IMG/VR virus record: IMGVR_UViG_3300030116_003998
Coordinates: 1 to 22,624 of that record
Direction: 5' to 3' (one strand)
From: a virus
DNA length: 22,624 nucleotides
Shown: one piece after another, positions 3,352 to 16,690 of the stretch
Numbering within the stretch: position 1 is the stretch's first letter
Layout: each line of letters starts with the position of its first letter
Notes under the pieces: generated by a model
The model's database searches: none
What the model was told of the DNA's origin: nothing
The model's input: the letters and a program-made list of their open reading frames with translations, nothing else
Made by a program: the position numbers and the translations under genes

Positions 3352-3494
3352 ACGACAAACACTACACATTTAAAAGAAAGTTTTAAACGCTTGTGTTTAG
3401 TCCTCTTTACTGTTAAAGTAGGACATAGTGTACGGTGGTGTAGTTCTCAACTATACCTTCCTTGTCGTGTAATATACCTGCTACACCACAGTAC
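3352..3494. ncRNA. possible structured RNA in the divergent region
   Basis: Several long complementary arms occur close together: AAACAC/GTGTTT (3357-3362 with 3393-3398) enclosing TTTAAAA-GAAAG-TTTTAAA (3369-3387); GTCCTCTTTA with TAAAG-T-AGGAC (3400-3424, loop CTGT); and a 14-base arm at 3430-3443 matching 3481-3494 at 13 positions. GTCGT at 3464-3468 could pair with ACGAC at 3352-3356, forming a pseudoknot. The non-coding context fits an RNA, but there are no G.U pairs to show which strand is transcribed. Confidence 0.4.
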
Positions 3495-3798
3495 CTAATT
3501 AGACAAGTTACCACATAATTTTTCTCTACTTACGTACTATATATAGGGGGTAGCTGGGTTAAATCCCCCCTCGCATACACATGCGTAGGCATAATGCGTA
3601 CTCGTATAATAGGAAATCTAAATCTAAACTTTACATCTAGATTTGTGCTCGTATGCGTATGTATGCCCCTATGTGTCCCATGTTGAATTAAAATTAGTTC
3701 CTATGCATTGAAACGATTTATAGTTCGCATAAGCCCTATGCGTAAGGAAAACAAAACAGTAAAAAATAACTAATGTTCGGCTCGTGTTCTTTTGGTGC

Positions 3799-4279: not shown

Positions 4280-4298
4280 ATCTAGCCTAAACAAAAAG

Positions 4299-4326
4299 CC
4301 CCCCTATGCGTAGGGGGGTTTTTTTT
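4299..4326 (+). terminator. rho-independent terminator after the 3881 gene
   Basis: An 8-bp stem CCCCCCTA/TAGGGGGG with loop TGCG, followed by eight T. The stem-loop centre is the TATGCGTA motif found throughout the flanking non-coding DNA. Confidence 0.9.
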
Positions 4327-4999: not shown

Positions 5000-5125
5000 A
5001 TGATAAGAAAAATAAAAATAATGTGGTACTTCTCGTGGCTTGATGTAAAGATAATTAGAATTAAATATCTTGTACTCACGCTACTTGATGTAATTAGGAA
5101 TTATTATGTTTATACAAGGACATAA
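5000..5125 (+). CDS. possible 41-residue basic peptide
   Basis: ATG at 5000 is preceded by AAAGGGG at suitable spacing. The frame reads MIRKIKIMWYFSWLDVKIIR and continues with a hydrophobic basic segment, overlapping the next start by 20 bases. The DNA contains an imperfect duplication (CTTGATGTAA... near 5039 and 5084), so the peptide repeats a LDVI-type motif. It may be a leader peptide that couples to the next gene or may not be translated at all. Confidence 0.35.
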   Translation: MIRKIKIMWYFSWLDVKIIRIKYLVLTLLDVIRNYYVYTRT

Positions 5126-5561
5126 TACTGACAAGGCAAGTTACTTGCCGAAGGGTACTTACAAAGAAGGCTCTACCATAGACAGTATGCGTGAGCCTAC
5201 TGTAAGACCTGACATACCACTTCCCTCTGGTGCATGTATTTACTGTCGTAAGAATACATCATCACAACGAGCTTGTTACTCGTGTAGGGAAGTTGACTTC
5301 AAAGTAAACAGCAAAGAACATGCTGAATACCTAGCTAGTATTCACGATGTTATAGATACTAAACAGAAGTCCATTGATGAGGGACACTATGAGGGTATTA
5401 CTAACGCTGATTACGAGGAGAAACTAGCTTTGCTAGGCGACACTAAGTACGACCATGATATAGCAGAAGGTTGTTGCCCTAGCCATAGCGATTTATTCAA
5501 GCCATACTGCAAAGGTTGTGGGTTACAACTACCTATGACTATGGTATGCGACTACTGTTAG
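5106..5561 (+). CDS. 151-residue multi-zinc-knuckle protein
   Basis: The start has AGGA 7 bases upstream. Cys pairs occur in an early CIYCRKN...CYSC module, in a CCPSH segment and in a C-terminal CKGCG...CDYC module, a layout typical of small zinc-ribbon proteins binding nucleic acid or protein. The central part is acidic and helical. I do not recognise the family. It is immediately upstream of the large structured RNA, so an RNA-related role is worth considering, but that is inference. The last codons and the following bases form ACTACT-GTT-AGTAGT followed by five T, which could be a weak terminator. Confidence 0.8.
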   Translation: MFIQGHNTDKASYLPKGTYKEGSTIDSMREPTVRPDIPLPSGACIYCRKNTSSQRACYSCREVDFKVNSKEHAEYLASIHDVIDTKQKSIDEGHYEGITNADYEEKLALLGDTKYDHDIAEGCCPSHSDLFKPYCKGCGLQLPMTMVCDYC

Positions 5562-5587
5562 TAGTTTTTATATAAGAACTAATGAGT

Positions 5588-6236
5588 GGCTTGTCCATGT
5601 AGGCGTATGCTACATAGCATACACCATTTCACATGCCTACGCGTAGTGAATCTACGCCAAGCCCTGCTATCTACTAAGTATAAAACAAGCTGGACACTTG
5701 CGTAAAGGTTAGTAGGTAGCACGATATCTATACGAGATTGATGTTCTCAACTGTTGCATTGCAACCAATAAATTATTCAATAAGTTGTAGGTATCGTGCT
5801 ATCTATCTATTACATAGTACTCCCTGTACAAGTCGTGCAAACGATATAGGTAGGTAGCTTAGAGCAGACACTTCACGAGAGTGAGAACTTTGTATACAAA
5901 TAGTTATGGGTAAGTTAACTGCTTATCAGCGTAGTAGGTGTTTATATTTTTCCCTACATATATTGTTACGCTGTATGTGAAGCGATAGTGTCTGTTCTAG
6001 GCTATCTATCACATCATTAAATAGGGCATTGGATTGTTTGCCCTTTGTGTGAGTGTTGTGATGATAGAAGTAACTACTGTGATAGTTGCTCGTTACTTAT
6101 AAGTAGGAGTCAGTACTTTACAGCCCTGTTTGAAACTGATGACCGAAGTGTAGGTAGCGAGAGGTGTATATTCAGGGAATCCCCTTCCCAATTACTTGCC
6201 GTAATTTGCGTACGATGTACACCTCTCGTTATCTAT
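5588..6236 (+). ncRNA. very large multi-domain structured RNA, about 650 nt
   Basis: No credible gene lies here, yet complementary arms cover most of it. Domain A (5588-5663): GGCTTG/CAAGCC closes a junction of GTAGGC/GCCTAC (5599-5604 with 5635-5640, capped by GTATGC/GCATAC) and hairpin GCGTAG/CTACGC (5641-5657), with almost no unpaired joints. After it, seven segments pair in series: 5666-5675 with 5711-5720; 5717-5726 with 5792-5801; 5798-5810 with 5846-5858; 5855-5872 with 5987-6004 (18 bp); 6001-6012 with 6148-6158; 6150-6169 with 6217-6236 (20 bp). The non-Watson-Crick pairs in these stems are G.U on the + strand, not A.C, which fixes the strand; the 6001/6148 stem also needs one bulged base. 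Inner hairpins include TCGT-GCAA-ACGA (5833-5844) and TCAC-GAGA-GTGA (5873-5884), both with GNRA loops, CAGCGTA/TACGCTG, GGGAA/TTCCC and AATTAC/GTAATT. Its 3' end abuts the ribosome binding site of the 6249 gene. It resembles large ornate phage RNAs in style; the family is unknown. Confidence 0.85.
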
Positions 6237-6248
6237 CAAAGGAGAAAA

Positions 6249-6392
6249 ATGTTATGTGATAACTGTAAACAAGGCGAGATGTCCGTAGTAGGTCAACTTG
6301 CAAATGTTAAATCAACTGTACTCAACATAGTGAAGTGTTGGACTTGTGGGTATGGTAGTGTTCGCAAACTCAACACAAAGAGGAGGTTGTAA
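6249..6392 (+). CDS. 47-residue zinc-ribbon protein
   Basis: The frame reads MLCDNCKQGEMSVVGQLANV and later CWTCG, a two-knuckle zinc ribbon with a basic tail. I chose the ATG at 6249 because AAAGGAG sits just before it; the same frame stays open upstream to a TTG at 6045, but that part overlaps strong RNA stems and has no ribosome binding site. It is the first gene of the operon that follows the large RNA, and its stop overlaps the next start as TAATG. Function unknown. Confidence 0.72.
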   Translation: MLCDNCKQGEMSVVGQLANVKSTVLNIVKCWTCGYGSVRKLNTKRRL

Positions 6393-8993: not shown

Positions 8994-10678
8994 TGCTATT
9001 CAAAGCTAGAAAATCGAGTAAGCAGTTACCAAAGAGCTTACCTAACCTAGCATTGCAAGGCAACAAGATACAAAGATATACTTATGAGAAAGACAAAAGT
9101 GTATCTGCTACTAGGCATGGTATACCTATACCAAGTTCCTCGTATGATACTCAGCATGATGTTAATAGGGCAATGTTATTACAAACCCTGCGTAAGAAAT
9201 ACTTTAGTCGTGCTATGTACAGAGGAGAGATTGATTGGGATATTATGTCTGTTGCTCAAACTCTTTGTATCTTGCCTATTGCAAGAGCAGTCTTAGTAAA
9301 AACATCTAAGGAATTGAGTAAATACTCAAGTAACTTACAAGATGAACACAATGGACAAAGCTACAATGTTTCTAATTATCTACCAAAGATGAGTTATAGA
9401 AACTTTACTTACTATGTAGACCAACTAGTTGACTTACTATATACGGAACTAGACAAGAATAAATCTAGTGATGATATTAGTAAGACACTTACGAGTTTTG
9501 CAATCAAAACATTTGGCTTTACTAGAAATGGTATAGGTCAACTGTATGGTGATGATTGGAGCGATACGATAGAGAGTGCAGTTCGTAGAAATGCACCATT
9601 GCAAATAGTTAGGAACGATGCTGAACTTAAATGGGAAGTATCTGCTGTGCATAGAGTTGTTAACTCAAGTCTGGAAAATCTCAATAGTGCTATTAGATAT
9701 ATTAATAAGCGTAAGAGACCTTCTAAGTGGAGTTATGATAATGAGGAGGAGCGTTGGAAAATTCGGTATTTGAAGTTCCAACCTACCAAACATGCTAGAA
9801 AAGTATACAATATGTTATATGATAGACATGAGTGGTACTCTAATCATTGGAAAAGTATACTAACAGGTATACCTTCTGTTGTTAATGGAGAAGTAGGCGA
9901 TATGTCTAAACTTGATAAAGTTAAAAGTCAAACACAAAAAGACAGAGATACTAAATTACAAGAGTTGGCTATGCCTAAGTATATTGATGATTCACTTGCT
10001 AAAAAGATTGTTACAAAAGCAGAGAGAAACTTTAAACATGCTGTTGACTACCTAAGTAATAATGGTGGTGTGCATGGTAAAGCTAAACTGCATGTGTTCA
10101 AAGGCAACAAAGCTATTCGCAAAGCGTTACAAAAACTAACAGTAACTCAAGGCGAGTATGGTGTAAAACCAAGAAATGTACATAGAATCATTACTGATAG
10201 AAAAGTATTCAAACAAAGAAAACATATTGCAGGTGGTAGCATAATGATTGACTGCTCTGGAAGTATGGGCTTTACTAGTGATGATGTACGAGAAATTGTA
10301 GAAATATTACCAGCTACTAATATGGCTGGTTATGTAGGGTATGGTAATACTATCAATGGATATGACGGAGATATTAGAATCATAGCTAAAGATGGTCGTA
10401 TGGATACAACAGCGATAGACAAACTAATGGACTATGGTTGTAACTCTATTGACCTAGAAGCTCTCAAATGGTTGGCTAAGTTACCTAAGCCAAGAATTTG
10501 GGTTAGCGACATGCAAGTGGTTGGTGTACAGGATAACGAATCTGGTAGTACACAAACACTATCACATGATAAAGTCATGGAGATTTTTAGATTCATGACT
10601 CTTAATGAAATTATACCTATCAATGACATAGAACATGTCAAAGAGTATGCTAAACAGTATGCTAGATATGTAGGTTAA
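8993..10678 (+). CDS. VWA-domain partner of the MoxR ATPase (CobT-like)
   Basis: This 561-residue protein has a C-terminal von Willebrand A-like domain from about residue 414. The MIDAS metal site shows as DCSGSMG at 420-426, with a later WVSDMQ segment that could supply another acidic residue. The first 400 residues are helical and basic, with no recognised domain, and probably recognise the target. The gene overlaps the ATPase by one base and ends the operon; its stop codon overlaps the first base of a structured RNA element and a strong terminator follows. The pairing is the main evidence for joint function as a remodelling machine, in virion assembly or against a host complex. It is intact, with no sign of truncation. 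Confidence 0.85.
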   Translation: MLFKARKSSKQLPKSLPNLALQGNKIQRYTYEKDKSVSATRHGIPIPSSSYDTQHDVNRAMLLQTLRKKYFSRAMYRGEIDWDIMSVAQTLCILPIARAVLVKTSKELSKYSSNLQDEHNGQSYNVSNYLPKMSYRNFTYYVDQLVDLLYTELDKNKSSDDISKTLTSFAIKTFGFTRNGIGQLYGDDWSDTIESAVRRNAPLQIVRNDAELKWEVSAVHRVVNSSLENLNSAIRYINKRKRPSKWSYDNEEERWKIRYLKFQPTKHARKVYNMLYDRHEWYSNHWKSILTGIPSVVNGEVGDMSKLDKVKSQTQKDRDTKLQELAMPKYIDDSLAKKIVTKAERNFKHAVDYLSNNGGVHGKAKLHVFKGNKAIRKALQKLTVTQGEYGVKPRNVHRIITDRKVFKQRKHIAGGSIMIDCSGSMGFTSDDVREIVEILPATNMAGYVGYGNTINGYDGDIRIIAKDGRMDTTAIDKLMDYGCNSIDLEALKWLAKLPKPRIWVSDMQVVGVQDNESGSTQTLSHDKVMEIFRFMTLNEIIPINDIEHVKEYAKQYARYVG

Positions 10679-10735
10679 AGCTACTTAAGTCTAGCAATAG
10701 ACTAAGTATCTAGCAATAGATACCATAAGTAGCTT
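10678..10735 (+). ncRNA. three-way-junction RNA with twin GCAA-capped hairpins
   Basis: A perfect 10-bp closing stem AAGCTACTTA/TAAGTAGCTT encloses two hairpins, AGTCTA-GCAA-TAGACT (10688-10703) and GTATCTA-GCAA-TAGATAC (10706-10723). Joints are 0 to 2 bases. Both loops are the GNRA tetraloop GCAA on the + strand. It starts at the last base of the VWA gene stop codon and ends 4 bases before the terminator stem, so it is the 3' end of the operon transcript. Confidence 0.8.
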
Positions 10736-10739
10736 ATAA

Positions 10740-10788
10740 ATGCCCCCCAAGTGTGTGGTTGTTCGCACATTGGGGGGCATTTTTTTTT
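10740..10788 (+). terminator. strong rho-independent terminator of the MoxR/VWA operon
   Basis: An 11-bp stem ATGCCCCCCAA/TTGGGGGGCAT (10740-10750 with 10770-10780), with further inner pairing (TGTG/CACA), is followed by eight T and then a second T run. Confidence 0.92.
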
Positions 10789-10844
10789 GTTTTTTTTTCT
10801 ATGCATATGCATATACATGCTTATAAAATAATTCTATTTAATAC

Positions 10845-12249: not shown

Positions 12250-12258
12250 GGAGTGCAA

Positions 12259-13137
12259 ATGGACAAGGAAAAACATAAAAAATTAATCAAAGACTTCCCT
12301 AAAAGTGTGGTAAAACCTGCACCAAAGGGTAAGTTTGGGGACTATGTACCCCATCACATATACACACAACGACTTGTTGATGTGATACCAGGAGAGTACA
12401 ACTTCTTTTACGAAGTTATCAGAGGTAAAGATAATTCTATTGTTGGTGCAAAATGCACACTCATTATAGAAGGACTAGGTACAGTAGACGAAGTAGGAGA
12501 TGTTGATATGAATGCAATGAATAGAAACATTACCGAAAGCGAGATACTTAAACTAGCTGTATCAGATGGTATTAAAAGATGTTGTATGAGATTTGGAATA
12601 GGTCTAGAGCTATGGACAGGGGGGACAACAGAGGAAGAACACTATGCCTCTGAAAAAAAAACTCAACCTAACGCGGTGAAACCACCCTCAGTTCCAGTAA
12701 AATCAGATGCAGATAAGTCGCAGGATAGCCTTTCTCCTGCCGTTGAGACCAAGGCTTCTTCTGCATCGCAAGATAGTTCTAATCCTATAAAGGTATTAGA
12801 AGATGCAAACTTTTCTACAAAAGACTTGAATCATCCTAACGGAAAAAAAGCTATTGATGAAAATGGGTTGTGGTGTCCTTGTGGAGTAAAAGTAAATTAC
12901 ATTCCAGAATCACAAAAGACATCTGCAAAAGGACCTGACTTTAGATGTTCTGCTATGGGACAGTGTGAGGTAGGTGATGTAGTTGACGGTAAAAGATTTG
13001 CTAAATCTTGGTGGATAGTTGACTATAAAAAAGAAACACCAAAGATATGGAGTTACTACGTACAAGCTCTCAATGGTGTAGTGATGCCTACTGCAAAAGG
13101 TATGGATGATATTAAAGAAGGTGAAGCTCCTTTCTAA
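12259..13137 (+). CDS. Rad52-like single-strand annealing protein with zinc ribbon
   Basis: I chose the ATG at 12259, 5 bases after AAGGAG; a GTG two codons upstream is less likely. Residues 25-120 match the Rad52/Sak-type pattern: YVPHHIYTQRLVDVIPGEYN, a hydrophobic strand, then SDGIKRCCMRFGIGLELW near 102-119. A flexible Ser/Pro/Lys linker follows, then a Cys cluster (CPCG, later C-x5-C) that fits a zinc ribbon, and an acidic tail ending EGEAPF. The tail resembles the acidic Phe-ending tip of bacterial SSB, which recruits repair proteins. The protein would anneal single strands during phage recombination or replication, with the metallophosphoesterase upstream as possible end-processing partner. 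Confidence 0.75.
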   Translation: MDKEKHKKLIKDFPKSVVKPAPKGKFGDYVPHHIYTQRLVDVIPGEYNFFYEVIRGKDNSIVGAKCTLIIEGLGTVDEVGDVDMNAMNRNITESEILKLAVSDGIKRCCMRFGIGLELWTGGTTEEEHYASEKKTQPNAVKPPSVPVKSDADKSQDSLSPAVETKASSASQDSSNPIKVLEDANFSTKDLNHPNGKKAIDENGLWCPCGVKVNYIPESQKTSAKGPDFRCSAMGQCEVGDVVDGKRFAKSWWIVDYKKETPKIWSYYVQALNGVVMPTAKGMDDIKEGEAPF

Positions 13138-14576: not shown

Positions 14577-14759
14577 TTACTTTCGGAAGCCTATTGTTAG
14601 TAACCATATACCTAATGTTATTATAGTGGCTAACCCAGTTACTTGCTGGGCAGAACCAGTTAGTGTAAGCGTAGCTATAACTAAACCAACCAAAGTCCAA
14701 CTTAGGTTAAGAGTTTCTTTTATAGCTTCTACAAACCAATTCCATAATTTCTTTATCAT
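14577..14759 (-). CDS. 60-residue membrane protein, holin-like
   Basis: There are two predicted spans: TLVGLVIATLTLTGSA (about 22-37) and TGLATIITLGIWLLTIGF (about 41-58), after an amphipathic Trp-containing N-terminus. The size and layout fit a holin or antiholin, making a pair with the 13524-13814 protein. The ATG overlaps the stop of the 644-residue secreted protein by ATGA, which would couple the two. Which of the two membrane proteins forms the lesion cannot be told from sequence. Confidence 0.7.
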   Translation of the reverse strand: MIKKLWNWFVEAIKETLNLSWTLVGLVIATLTLTGSAQQVTGLATIITLGIWLLTIGFRK

Positions 14760-16690
14760 ATTTGTCTCCTAAAAACAAATGCAGCCATACTTGCTATTCT
14801 AGTCAGAATAACTGGGACTACCACTTCTTGTGCTTTTTCTTTTTGGTCTTGTGTCATATCATCTCCTATACTTCCAATACTTATATCTTCAAAATCTATA
14901 TCAACAAAAGTTTCTATTGGATTTTCTATAAATGTTTCGAACTGCACTTCAGTAACAACATCAGCAAGTGTATAGTTTTCTACATCTGCATTCTCTACAG
15001 CTCTTTCAACATATTCTTCTACAGCTTCAGCAACTACCTCATCTTCTTTAACAGCCTCAGCAATAATCTCTACATCTTCAGCTTGGACTTGTAGTACTTC
15101 TGCAACAACTTCTACTTGTTCTTCGGTTAATTCTTCTACGTTTTCTATTGCTTCTTCTACAACAGCTTGAACAACTTCTTGTACTTCTTCAGTAGCTTGG
15201 TCTAAATTTTGTACACCAATGTCATTGACTTGTTCTATAACTTCTATTGCTTCTTCAGTAGTAACTTCTTCTATAACAATATCTTCAATAACTTCTTCTA
15301 CTTCTGCTACTTCTTCAGCTACTTCTTCTTCAGTAAGTTCTAAAGGTTCTTTAATATCTTCTTGTTCACTCTTGATTTCGATATCTTCTTCTTGAATTTC
15401 TTCCTCTCTGATATCGTCATCTCCTGGTATCTCTTCGTCCAACTCATCTTCTATTTCTTCTTCCTCAAATTCTGTATCCCAGTCATCAAATTCTGTTTCT
15501 TCAGGTATATCAACCATCTCAATCTCCAAGTCAATATCCACTTCAAATTCTTCTTCAATGATAAAATCTTCTTCGATAGTTTCAAGTTCTTCAACTTCAT
15601 CTTCAAGTTCCAACTCAAGTACCACATCATCATCTTTAGGAAGCTCTCCTTTGGTATCGTATTCTTCTTCATTATCTTTTATTATAACTTCTTCTTCAGT
15701 TTCTTCTTCTGGTATATCACAATCACCACGCTCTATTTGTGCATCTGTCATATAACAACCAAACATTTCTTCATTCAATTTACGCTCATTATCTCTTTCA
15801 ACTGTTCCATCTTCTATTTCATGCTCTTCATATTCTGAGACAGTACCATCATCCATTACAACTTCTACCTTTACAGGCTCAGGGGGCGGTGGCGGTATGT
15901 AAGGCTCTGGTTCTGGTTCTGGTTCTGGAGGTGGCGGTAATGTAGTAGTTGTTGTAGTTGGTTGTATGTATTTAAATGATATATTATCTAACAAAGACCA
16001 ATCATTAATTGTTATTGTAAAACTTTCTATGAATGTTTCTAATGTGTCGTAAATGTTGTAAACAACATCTTCAAACATATTTTCTATATCTGTATTGTCT
16101 TGACCTTCTAAAACATTTACTTGTGTAGTTTCATCAGTATGTGTGTATGTAACTGTGCCATCATTATTTAATGCACCAATTCTAAAACCTACTTCATATA
16201 TATCTATTTGAAGTTCTTCTTCATCTACTGTTGTTGTTTCAGGTAATGTAAATGTATAGTCATTACTATCATTTCCATGTTGGAAATAATGTAAGTTCAT
16301 ATGAAAATCTTCCATACCACAACAATTCCAATTACCATTGCTGTGTTTATCGTCTATTTGTATATTATTTTCTACTTCATTACCCTGACTATCTAGCTCG
16401 TCTTCAGGTATTACTATGTCTGTAGTCTGTTCATATGTTTCAGGAACAGTTGTAGTCGTAGTAGTAGTTGTTGTAGTGTTATCTTCAGGAACAGTTGTAG
16501 TCGTAGTTGTTTCTTCTGGTCCATCAAATGTTTCTATTTCTTCTACTTCTCCTGGGATAGTCGTAGTAGTAGTATCAGGTACAGTAGTGGTAGTAGTAGT
16601 TGTAGTATCTGTATCATTAGCTAATGCCTTTATAGGCATTATAACAAGTAACAGTATTAACCACCATTGCAGCAACCGTGTCCGCAGCAT
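14756..16690 (-). CDS. secreted, Thr-rich and very acidic 644-residue membrane-anchored protein
   Basis: Residues 1-24 are a Sec signal peptide (basic start, WWLILLLVIMP core, cleavage after ALA). Next come poly-Thr repeats ending in VP (about 29-90), then a domain with two Cys (NCCGMEDF), a Pro/Glu hinge around 250-272, and a long region dominated by Glu and Asp. After about residue 480 a series of regular helical repeats (EEQVEVVAEVLQVQAEDVEI type) leads to a hydrophobic segment VVVPVILTRIASMAAFVF and a basic RRQI end. This is the layout of an exported protein anchored at its C-terminus, with about 590 residues outside. T(n)VP tracts are typical of surface proteins of low-GC marine actinobacteria. 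AGGAGG lies 9-10 bases before the ATG. It sits inside the lysis block. Function is unknown; superinfection exclusion or surface modification is conceivable. Confidence 0.85.
   Translation of the reverse strand: MLRTRLLQWWLILLLVIMPIKALANDTDTTTTTTTTVPDTTTTTIPGEVEEIETFDGPEETTTTTTVPEDNTTTTTTTTTTVPETYEQTTDIVIPEDELDSQGNEVENNIQIDDKHSNGNWNCCGMEDFHMNLHYFQHGNDSNDYTFTLPETTTVDEEELQIDIYEVGFRIGALNNDGTVTYTHTDETTQVNVLEGQDNTDIENMFEDVVYNIYDTLETFIESFTITINDWSLLDNISFKYIQPTTTTTTLPPPPEPEPEPEPYIPPPPPEPVKVEVVMDDGTVSEYEEHEIEDGTVERDNERKLNEEMFGCYMTDAQIERGDCDIPEEETEEEVIIKDNEEEYDTKGELPKDDDVVLELELEDEVEELETIEEDFIIEEEFEVDIDLEIEMVDIPEETEFDDWDTEFEEEEIEDELDEEIPGDDDIREEEIQEEDIEIKSEQEDIKEPLELTEEEVAEEVAEVEEVIEDIVIEEVTTEEAIEVIEQVNDIGVQNLDQATEEVQEVVQAVVEEAIENVEELTEEQVEVVAEVLQVQAEDVEIIAEAVKEDEVVAEAVEEYVERAVENADVENYTLADVVTEVQFETFIENPIETFVDIDFEDISIGSIGDDMTQDQKEKAQEVVVPVILTRIASMAAFVFRRQI

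Follow-up and report, generated by a model that had tools for sequence, protein, structure and literature searches.

What occupies the 687 noncoding nucleotides between two early genes of this uncultured marine phage, and is it one giant RNA or something built differently? The window, meaning the whole 22,624-nt stretch that was analysed, comes from a 30-kb IMG/VR phage record encoding a terminase, a MoxR-like ATPase, and a single-strand annealing protein. At 4293-4322 and 10738-10790, near 4300 and 10750, lie two intrinsic terminators, both very strong and rich in long runs of T, which seem to bound a polycistronic unit that holds the noncoding stretch. The features that frame it are as follows (other loci are cited by L numbers).

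5106 to 5561, + strand: gene for a protein of 151 aa bearing several CxxC pairs; its stop codon is followed directly by the array
5562 to 6248, + strand: hairpin-cassette array, noncoding, 687 nt, folding z of -13.5 on this strand against 16 shuffles
6240 to 6246, + strand: AAAGGAG, by direct reading the likely ribosome-binding site of the 47-aa gene
6249 to 6392, + strand: gene for a 47-aa CxxC...CxxC zinc-ribbon protein, directly 3' of the array, with homologues at 62 loci in viral contigs
12253 to 13137, + strand: single-strand annealing protein (phrog_3290, E 1.6e-9)

The 151-aa protein has homologues of 66-89% identity in L005 and L006 and no match in Pfam or PHROG. The predicted fold of the 47-aa protein weakly resembles an NrdR-like zinc ribbon (mean pLDDT 80; best E 0.14). 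No tRNA or tmRNA gene was found in the window, and no tRNA in the 78 related loci scanned.

The + strand of 5570-6250 folds at -232.8 kcal/mol, against a mean of -172.1 (sd 5.0) for 20 dinucleotide shuffles, none of which was equally low (z -12.2); the corresponding z on the - strand is -5.3. Over the whole window, taken in 160-nt steps, mean z is about -1 (sd 1.7), and the steps 5641-5800, 6001-6160, and 6121-6280 reach -5 to -6 on the + strand. A reading of the DNA from its letters alone (hereafter the sequence-only reading) had described a large structured RNA of some 650 bases here, an observation that these energies confirm. It had also assigned the RNA to the + strand, noting stem imperfections of the G.U rather than the A.C kind, and a count of mismatches in inverted repeats that did not presuppose a strand bears this out: isolated mismatches number 14 G.T and no A.C in the window's array, and 123 G.T against 12 A.C in 14 related arrays together. 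Because G.T so far exceeds A.C at these positions, sequence analysis identifies the array as a structured RNA encoded on the + strand. A strongly structured noncoding stretch stands 5' of the 47-aa gene in all 37 regions examined (the window and 36 relatives), and energy is lower on the + strand in 37 of 37, the z values of this survey being rough, with 16 shuffles each, and some regions having an equally low z on the - strand. As for protein coding through the region, the only long ORF overlapping the array, 6045-6392, is the 47-aa gene (6249) extended upstream in its own frame.

The array resolves into a row of cassettes, each a long stalk with its own distinct head as judged from sequence analysis. 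Their bases are the half-sites UAGGUAGC and GCUAUCUA in the order Y-R-Y-R-Y, R (UAGRUAGC) being complementary to Y (GCUAYYUA) with one wobble.

5588 to 5663, + strand: three-way junction in the minimum-energy fold, with P1 at 5588-5593/5658-5663, a first arm from 5599, and a second arm at 5641-5657
5665 to 5721, + strand: Y-R hairpin (Y 5666-5673, R 5713-5720; inverted repeat 5665-5677/5709-5721), with homologues in L112, L006, L117, and L246
5712 to 5805, + strand: R-Y hairpin (inverted repeat 5713-5741/5777-5805), its R common with the preceding and its Y with the following hairpin
5716 to 5717 (approximate), + strand: insertion point, from pairwise alignment, of an extra 86-nt cassette in L095
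5798 to 5858, + strand: Y-R hairpin, from the fold, with an arm capped by GCAA near 5837
5850 to 6009, + strand: long R-Y hairpin with a multibranched head (inverted repeat 5851-5872/5987-6008); the inner 5882-6009 is a mobile domain
6001 to 6071, + strand: hairpin whose apical loop is exchangeable (about 6018-6046, swapped in L095 according to alignment)
6068 to 6101, + strand: small hairpin, from the fold and an inverted repeat, in competition with the following cassette through its 3' side
6091 to 6160, + strand: E hairpin, matched by covariance model R1; internal loop AGUA/GAA, apical loop CCCUGUU
6149 to 6237, + strand: terminal long hairpin (R 6151-6158 common to the E hairpin; inverted repeat 6151-6171/6215-6235), with a homologue in L112

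The three-way junction is recognisable in L112, L006, L117, and L246, its closing stem changed on both sides, and the GCAA-capped arm recurs in L113/L114. Both the junction and the two GNRA loops (GCAA and GAGA) picked out by the sequence-only reading appear in the minimum-energy fold. The inverted repeats behind the long stems it proposed are real and lie where it had placed them; several share an arm, so the stems cannot all form simultaneously.

Around the E hairpin, 208 of 228 neighbouring half-site pairs alternate, against a mean of 135.6 in label shuffles, though simple tandem hairpins would do so by construction. Arrays open with a Y half-site in 58 of 65 cases and close with one in 50 of 65. 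Because Y stands at both ends and the conserved E hairpin lies between Y and R, adjacent hairpins appear to share basal strands, and hence neighbouring hairpins would compete for them. Partition functions, computed in silico, give R 5713 a probability of 0.97 of pairing with Y 5798, which is the R-Y register; they predict the Y-R register for L117, L172, and L161, and a 0.59/0.41 mixture of registers for L112. That the preferred register differs between arrays in these predictions counts against the overall reading proposed below.

The best-conserved cassette is the E hairpin, in which an outer stalk leads to an internal loop of AGUA opposite GAA, followed by the clamp GG/CY and by an inner stem that ends in the apical CCCUGUU. 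Across 36 copies, the internal loop and CCCUGUU are nearly invariant and the stalks vary freely. The window copy scores 62.5 bits (E 9.7e-13) against R1, a model built from 36 sequences that include this copy, and is the only one in its genome record. In the alignment of 36 distinct copies, 90.8% of cells are paired. Covariation in homologues, suggested earlier as a check, was found in 17 of 18 pairs, which show double changes, and doubly changed cells number 139 against 39.3 in shuffles, with 0 of 500 shuffles as high; at least six outer pairs were needed for a copy to be aligned, so that the outer stalk is favoured by selection and the inner stem beyond the clamp and first pair is free of it. 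A pattern scan matched at least 120 viral stretches, and among the 98 distinct sequences read, roughly a dozen are apparent chance matches lacking a stalk. The hairpin occurs in roughly 100 viral contigs, with one copy per genome among the matches listed. Exactly one is present in each of 11 viral records, and R1 likewise returns one per locus, apart from two weak second matches of 30 bits in L223 and L249. On this comparative evidence, the E hairpin is a conserved, covarying RNA family, absent from Rfam and present once per genome. A literature search for a description of such an RNA found none; the Ocean-VI candidate motif of PMC2864571 has no Rfam accession.

A stricter E pattern run against GTDB matched a single Actinomycetota MAG, on a contig that matches the L006 phage; a second contig of the same MAG also bears the hairpin. 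An origin as a host RNA was considered and rejected, the hairpin being absent from 41 other genomes of that MAG's order. Because the matching contig corresponds to the L006 phage and those 41 genomes lack the hairpin, E is a phage feature, and the host is likely to be an Actinomycetota, as judged from one bin. A hammerhead ribozyme, suggested by CUGAUGA...GAA in the window, was likewise set aside since relatives do not preserve CUGAUGA. Scanning for the CCCUGUUU loop with a 16-base pattern returned mostly chance matches. AGUA opposite GAA also recalls loop E of the sarcin-ricin type, but that is a widespread submotif rather than a family, and the apical loop here is CCCUGUU instead of GAGA.

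Close relatives were found through the MoxR-like ATPase and through the 47-aa protein (62 loci). Over 630 nt, a handful of bases separate the window from L095, barring one insertion and one loop swap: L095 alone of the pair carries an extra complete 86-nt hairpin, a near-identical version of which occurs in L108, and its swapped apical loop resembles that of L005. L005 itself lacks the 160-nt hairpin of 5850-6009. The 128 nt of domain 5882-6009 are found again, 93% identical, in L170, a phage otherwise different, and blastn of the L170 array against the window finds no match outside that domain. The domain lies 5' of E in the window and 3' of E in L170. L290 also has the domain, with one sub-arm missing; its region is 84% identical to that of L170, yet lacks an E hairpin where L170 has one. 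Heads change stalks as well, a head of about 85 nt being common to L136 and L204 on different stalks, and in other phages, cassettes stand at other gene junctions, preceding other genes. These alignments demonstrate that phages gain and lose cassettes, swap them, and change their order. Because hairpin number, identity, and order vary between near-identical genomes, the picture of a modular row of RNA cassettes open to exchange suits the array better than that of a single giant globular RNA. To our knowledge, there is no parallel for RNA evolution by the movement of whole hairpin domains between genomes as cassettes.

Certain relatives carry tRNA-like heads with canonical T-arms. Heads with a T-arm and T-loop, not recognised as tRNA genes, are seen in L013 (about 3480-3610; the same contig as L161), L200 (on the minus strand, about 150 nt past E), L260, and L192. 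A compact tRNA-like stretch adjoins the array in L198 (2390-2465, minus strand) and L255 (2163-2238, minus strand), with a G3.U70 acceptor pair by inspection and 32 bits against tmRNA (RF00023), below the cut-off of 47. L180 and L279 also carry a compact tRNA-like domain with G3.U70 and no message part. The likeness of these four to tmRNA goes no further than a tRNA-like stretch with G3.U70 next to an array, since they lack a reading frame and pseudoknots, and the window has nothing of the kind. Pyrimidine-rich loop motifs are strand-specific, being enriched on the + strand, with 14 copies of CCCTTT (1.6 expected) and six of CTCCTTT (0.5 expected), some copies being homologous and hence not independent; AAAGGG, the complement of CCCTTT, occurs twice (1.8 expected). 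In array loops of L113, L114, L119, and L172, GUGUCUCCUUUC matches eight bases of the anti-Shine-Dalgarno tail of 16S rRNA.

The reading proposed here, to which about an even chance is given, is that the phage encodes, between cistrons, an RNA composed of hairpin cassettes open to exchange, which serves as a set of platforms or decoys. The array would be made within the operon transcript between the two terminators, and the RNA would fold as a string of hairpins, each exchanging basal strands with its neighbours. Its heads may bind host factors of RNA handling or translation, as platforms or as decoys, and the short common half-sites may let the phage annealing recombinase exchange cassettes, so that they spread; the annealing protein is a plausible agent of such exchange. 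High cassette turnover would fit an arms race. The downstream-encoded zinc ribbon perhaps acts together with the RNA and is a possible partner of the array, although the 47-aa gene lies within about 1.4 kb of E at just 26 of 70 E loci, which counts against a joint role. The function favoured, with low confidence, is that of an early-expressed set of RNA platforms or decoys that engage host RNA-handling factors and are reshaped through recombination. A more specific version, in which tRNA-like, loop-E, and anti-Shine-Dalgarno-like (CUCCUUU) heads mimic the translation machinery as a cassette library of tunable decoys against host RNA-targeting toxins or nucleases, is unlikely; if true, it would make this a phage RNA whose evolution resembles that of a cassette library, its many distinct heads carried on interchangeable stalks that complementary half-sites join, and one loop-E hairpin being widespread. 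The novelty lies in the anatomy, and the mechanism is an unproven proposal. The anatomy adds to the RNAs of uncultured phages a widespread structured family absent from Rfam, and the single-copy E hairpin, with its probable link to marine Actinomycetota, makes function testable.

The main rival, itself doubtful, holds that the hairpins are elements for RNase III-type processing and stability, through which the operon mRNA is cut and the relative expression of flanking genes is set as in T7, the heads being minor. In T7, each intergenic RNase III site is one short hairpin, set between early genes within a polycistronic unit, and the array too consists of hairpins between early genes of such a unit, bounded by terminators; its stems of at least 20 pairs suit the enzyme, and no promoter-like site beyond chance was found at its start. 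One or two hairpins would suffice for this task, however, whereas the array has about nine cassettes with conserved heads. Those heads are over-specific for cleavage sites, as the contrast between the E loops and their variable stalks illustrates, and the presence of cassettes at other gene junctions in other phages also speaks against this explanation.

A cis-acting switch, in which alternative Y-R-Y hairpins control translation of or readthrough into the zinc-ribbon gene in the manner of an attenuator, is quite improbable. In its favour, every R can pair with a Y on either side, and L112 is predicted to be a mixture; but the final hairpin leaves AAAGGAG uncovered in the predicted fold, arrays elsewhere precede other genes, and cassette number varies freely.

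The sequence-only reading had itself compared the locus with GOLLD and ROOL while allowing for a new class. Rfam 15 at the gathering score gives no match in the window or in 12 related loci, and at E<=10 neither the window nor 5540-6270 gives a credible match, GOLLD and ROOL included; a DNA similarity search of INPHARED phages returns no match to the window region or to an E cassette. According to PMC12286853, GOLLD assembles as a 14-mer, is often found beside tRNAs, and keeps a 3' region that is universally conserved, and ROOL, with its pseudoknot and fixed stems P1-P19, builds an 8-mer cage. The array shares with GOLLD a phage origin, a length of 700 nt or more, and a high degree of structure, and with ROOL its being a large structured phage RNA; GNRA loops and the loop-E motif also fit an ornate RNA that self-assembles into an oligomer. 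It differs in lacking a covariance-model match to either, a nearby tRNA, and a fixed domain order, with the whole structure altered by insertion, loss, swapping, and reordering of cassettes even between near-identical genomes. An RNA of this type is very improbable. What stands of the earlier interpretation is a large + strand structured RNA of an undescribed class, which energy, polarity, covariation, and the lack of an Rfam match support; the likeness to GOLLD or ROOL is not borne out.

A DNA element (a replication origin, packaging site, or recombination site with its inverted repeats as cruciforms) would account for the repetition of complementary half-sites and for cassette movement at the DNA level, but is scarcely credible given the excess of G.T over A.C at stem mismatches, which a DNA role does not predict. 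Integron attC sites seem a poor fit to the array by their core sequences.

The modular array is not the only folded element in the unit. Directly 5' of the operon terminator, 10676-10735 contains a junction-like RNA with closing stem AAGCUACUUA/UAAGUAGCUU and two arms, each with a GCAA loop (CUAGCAAUAG). The same shape, with a changed closing stem, occurs at 7455-7516 of L287 (PBPX01000045), a MAG contig that appears to hold more than one unit of a phage of about 43.9 kb (positions 2857 and 46716), as a circular or concatenated assembly would. Elsewhere in the window, 14756-16690 is a minus-strand ORF of 644 aa that includes long repeats of Thr and Glu and probably encodes a protein of the surface or one associated with the tail.
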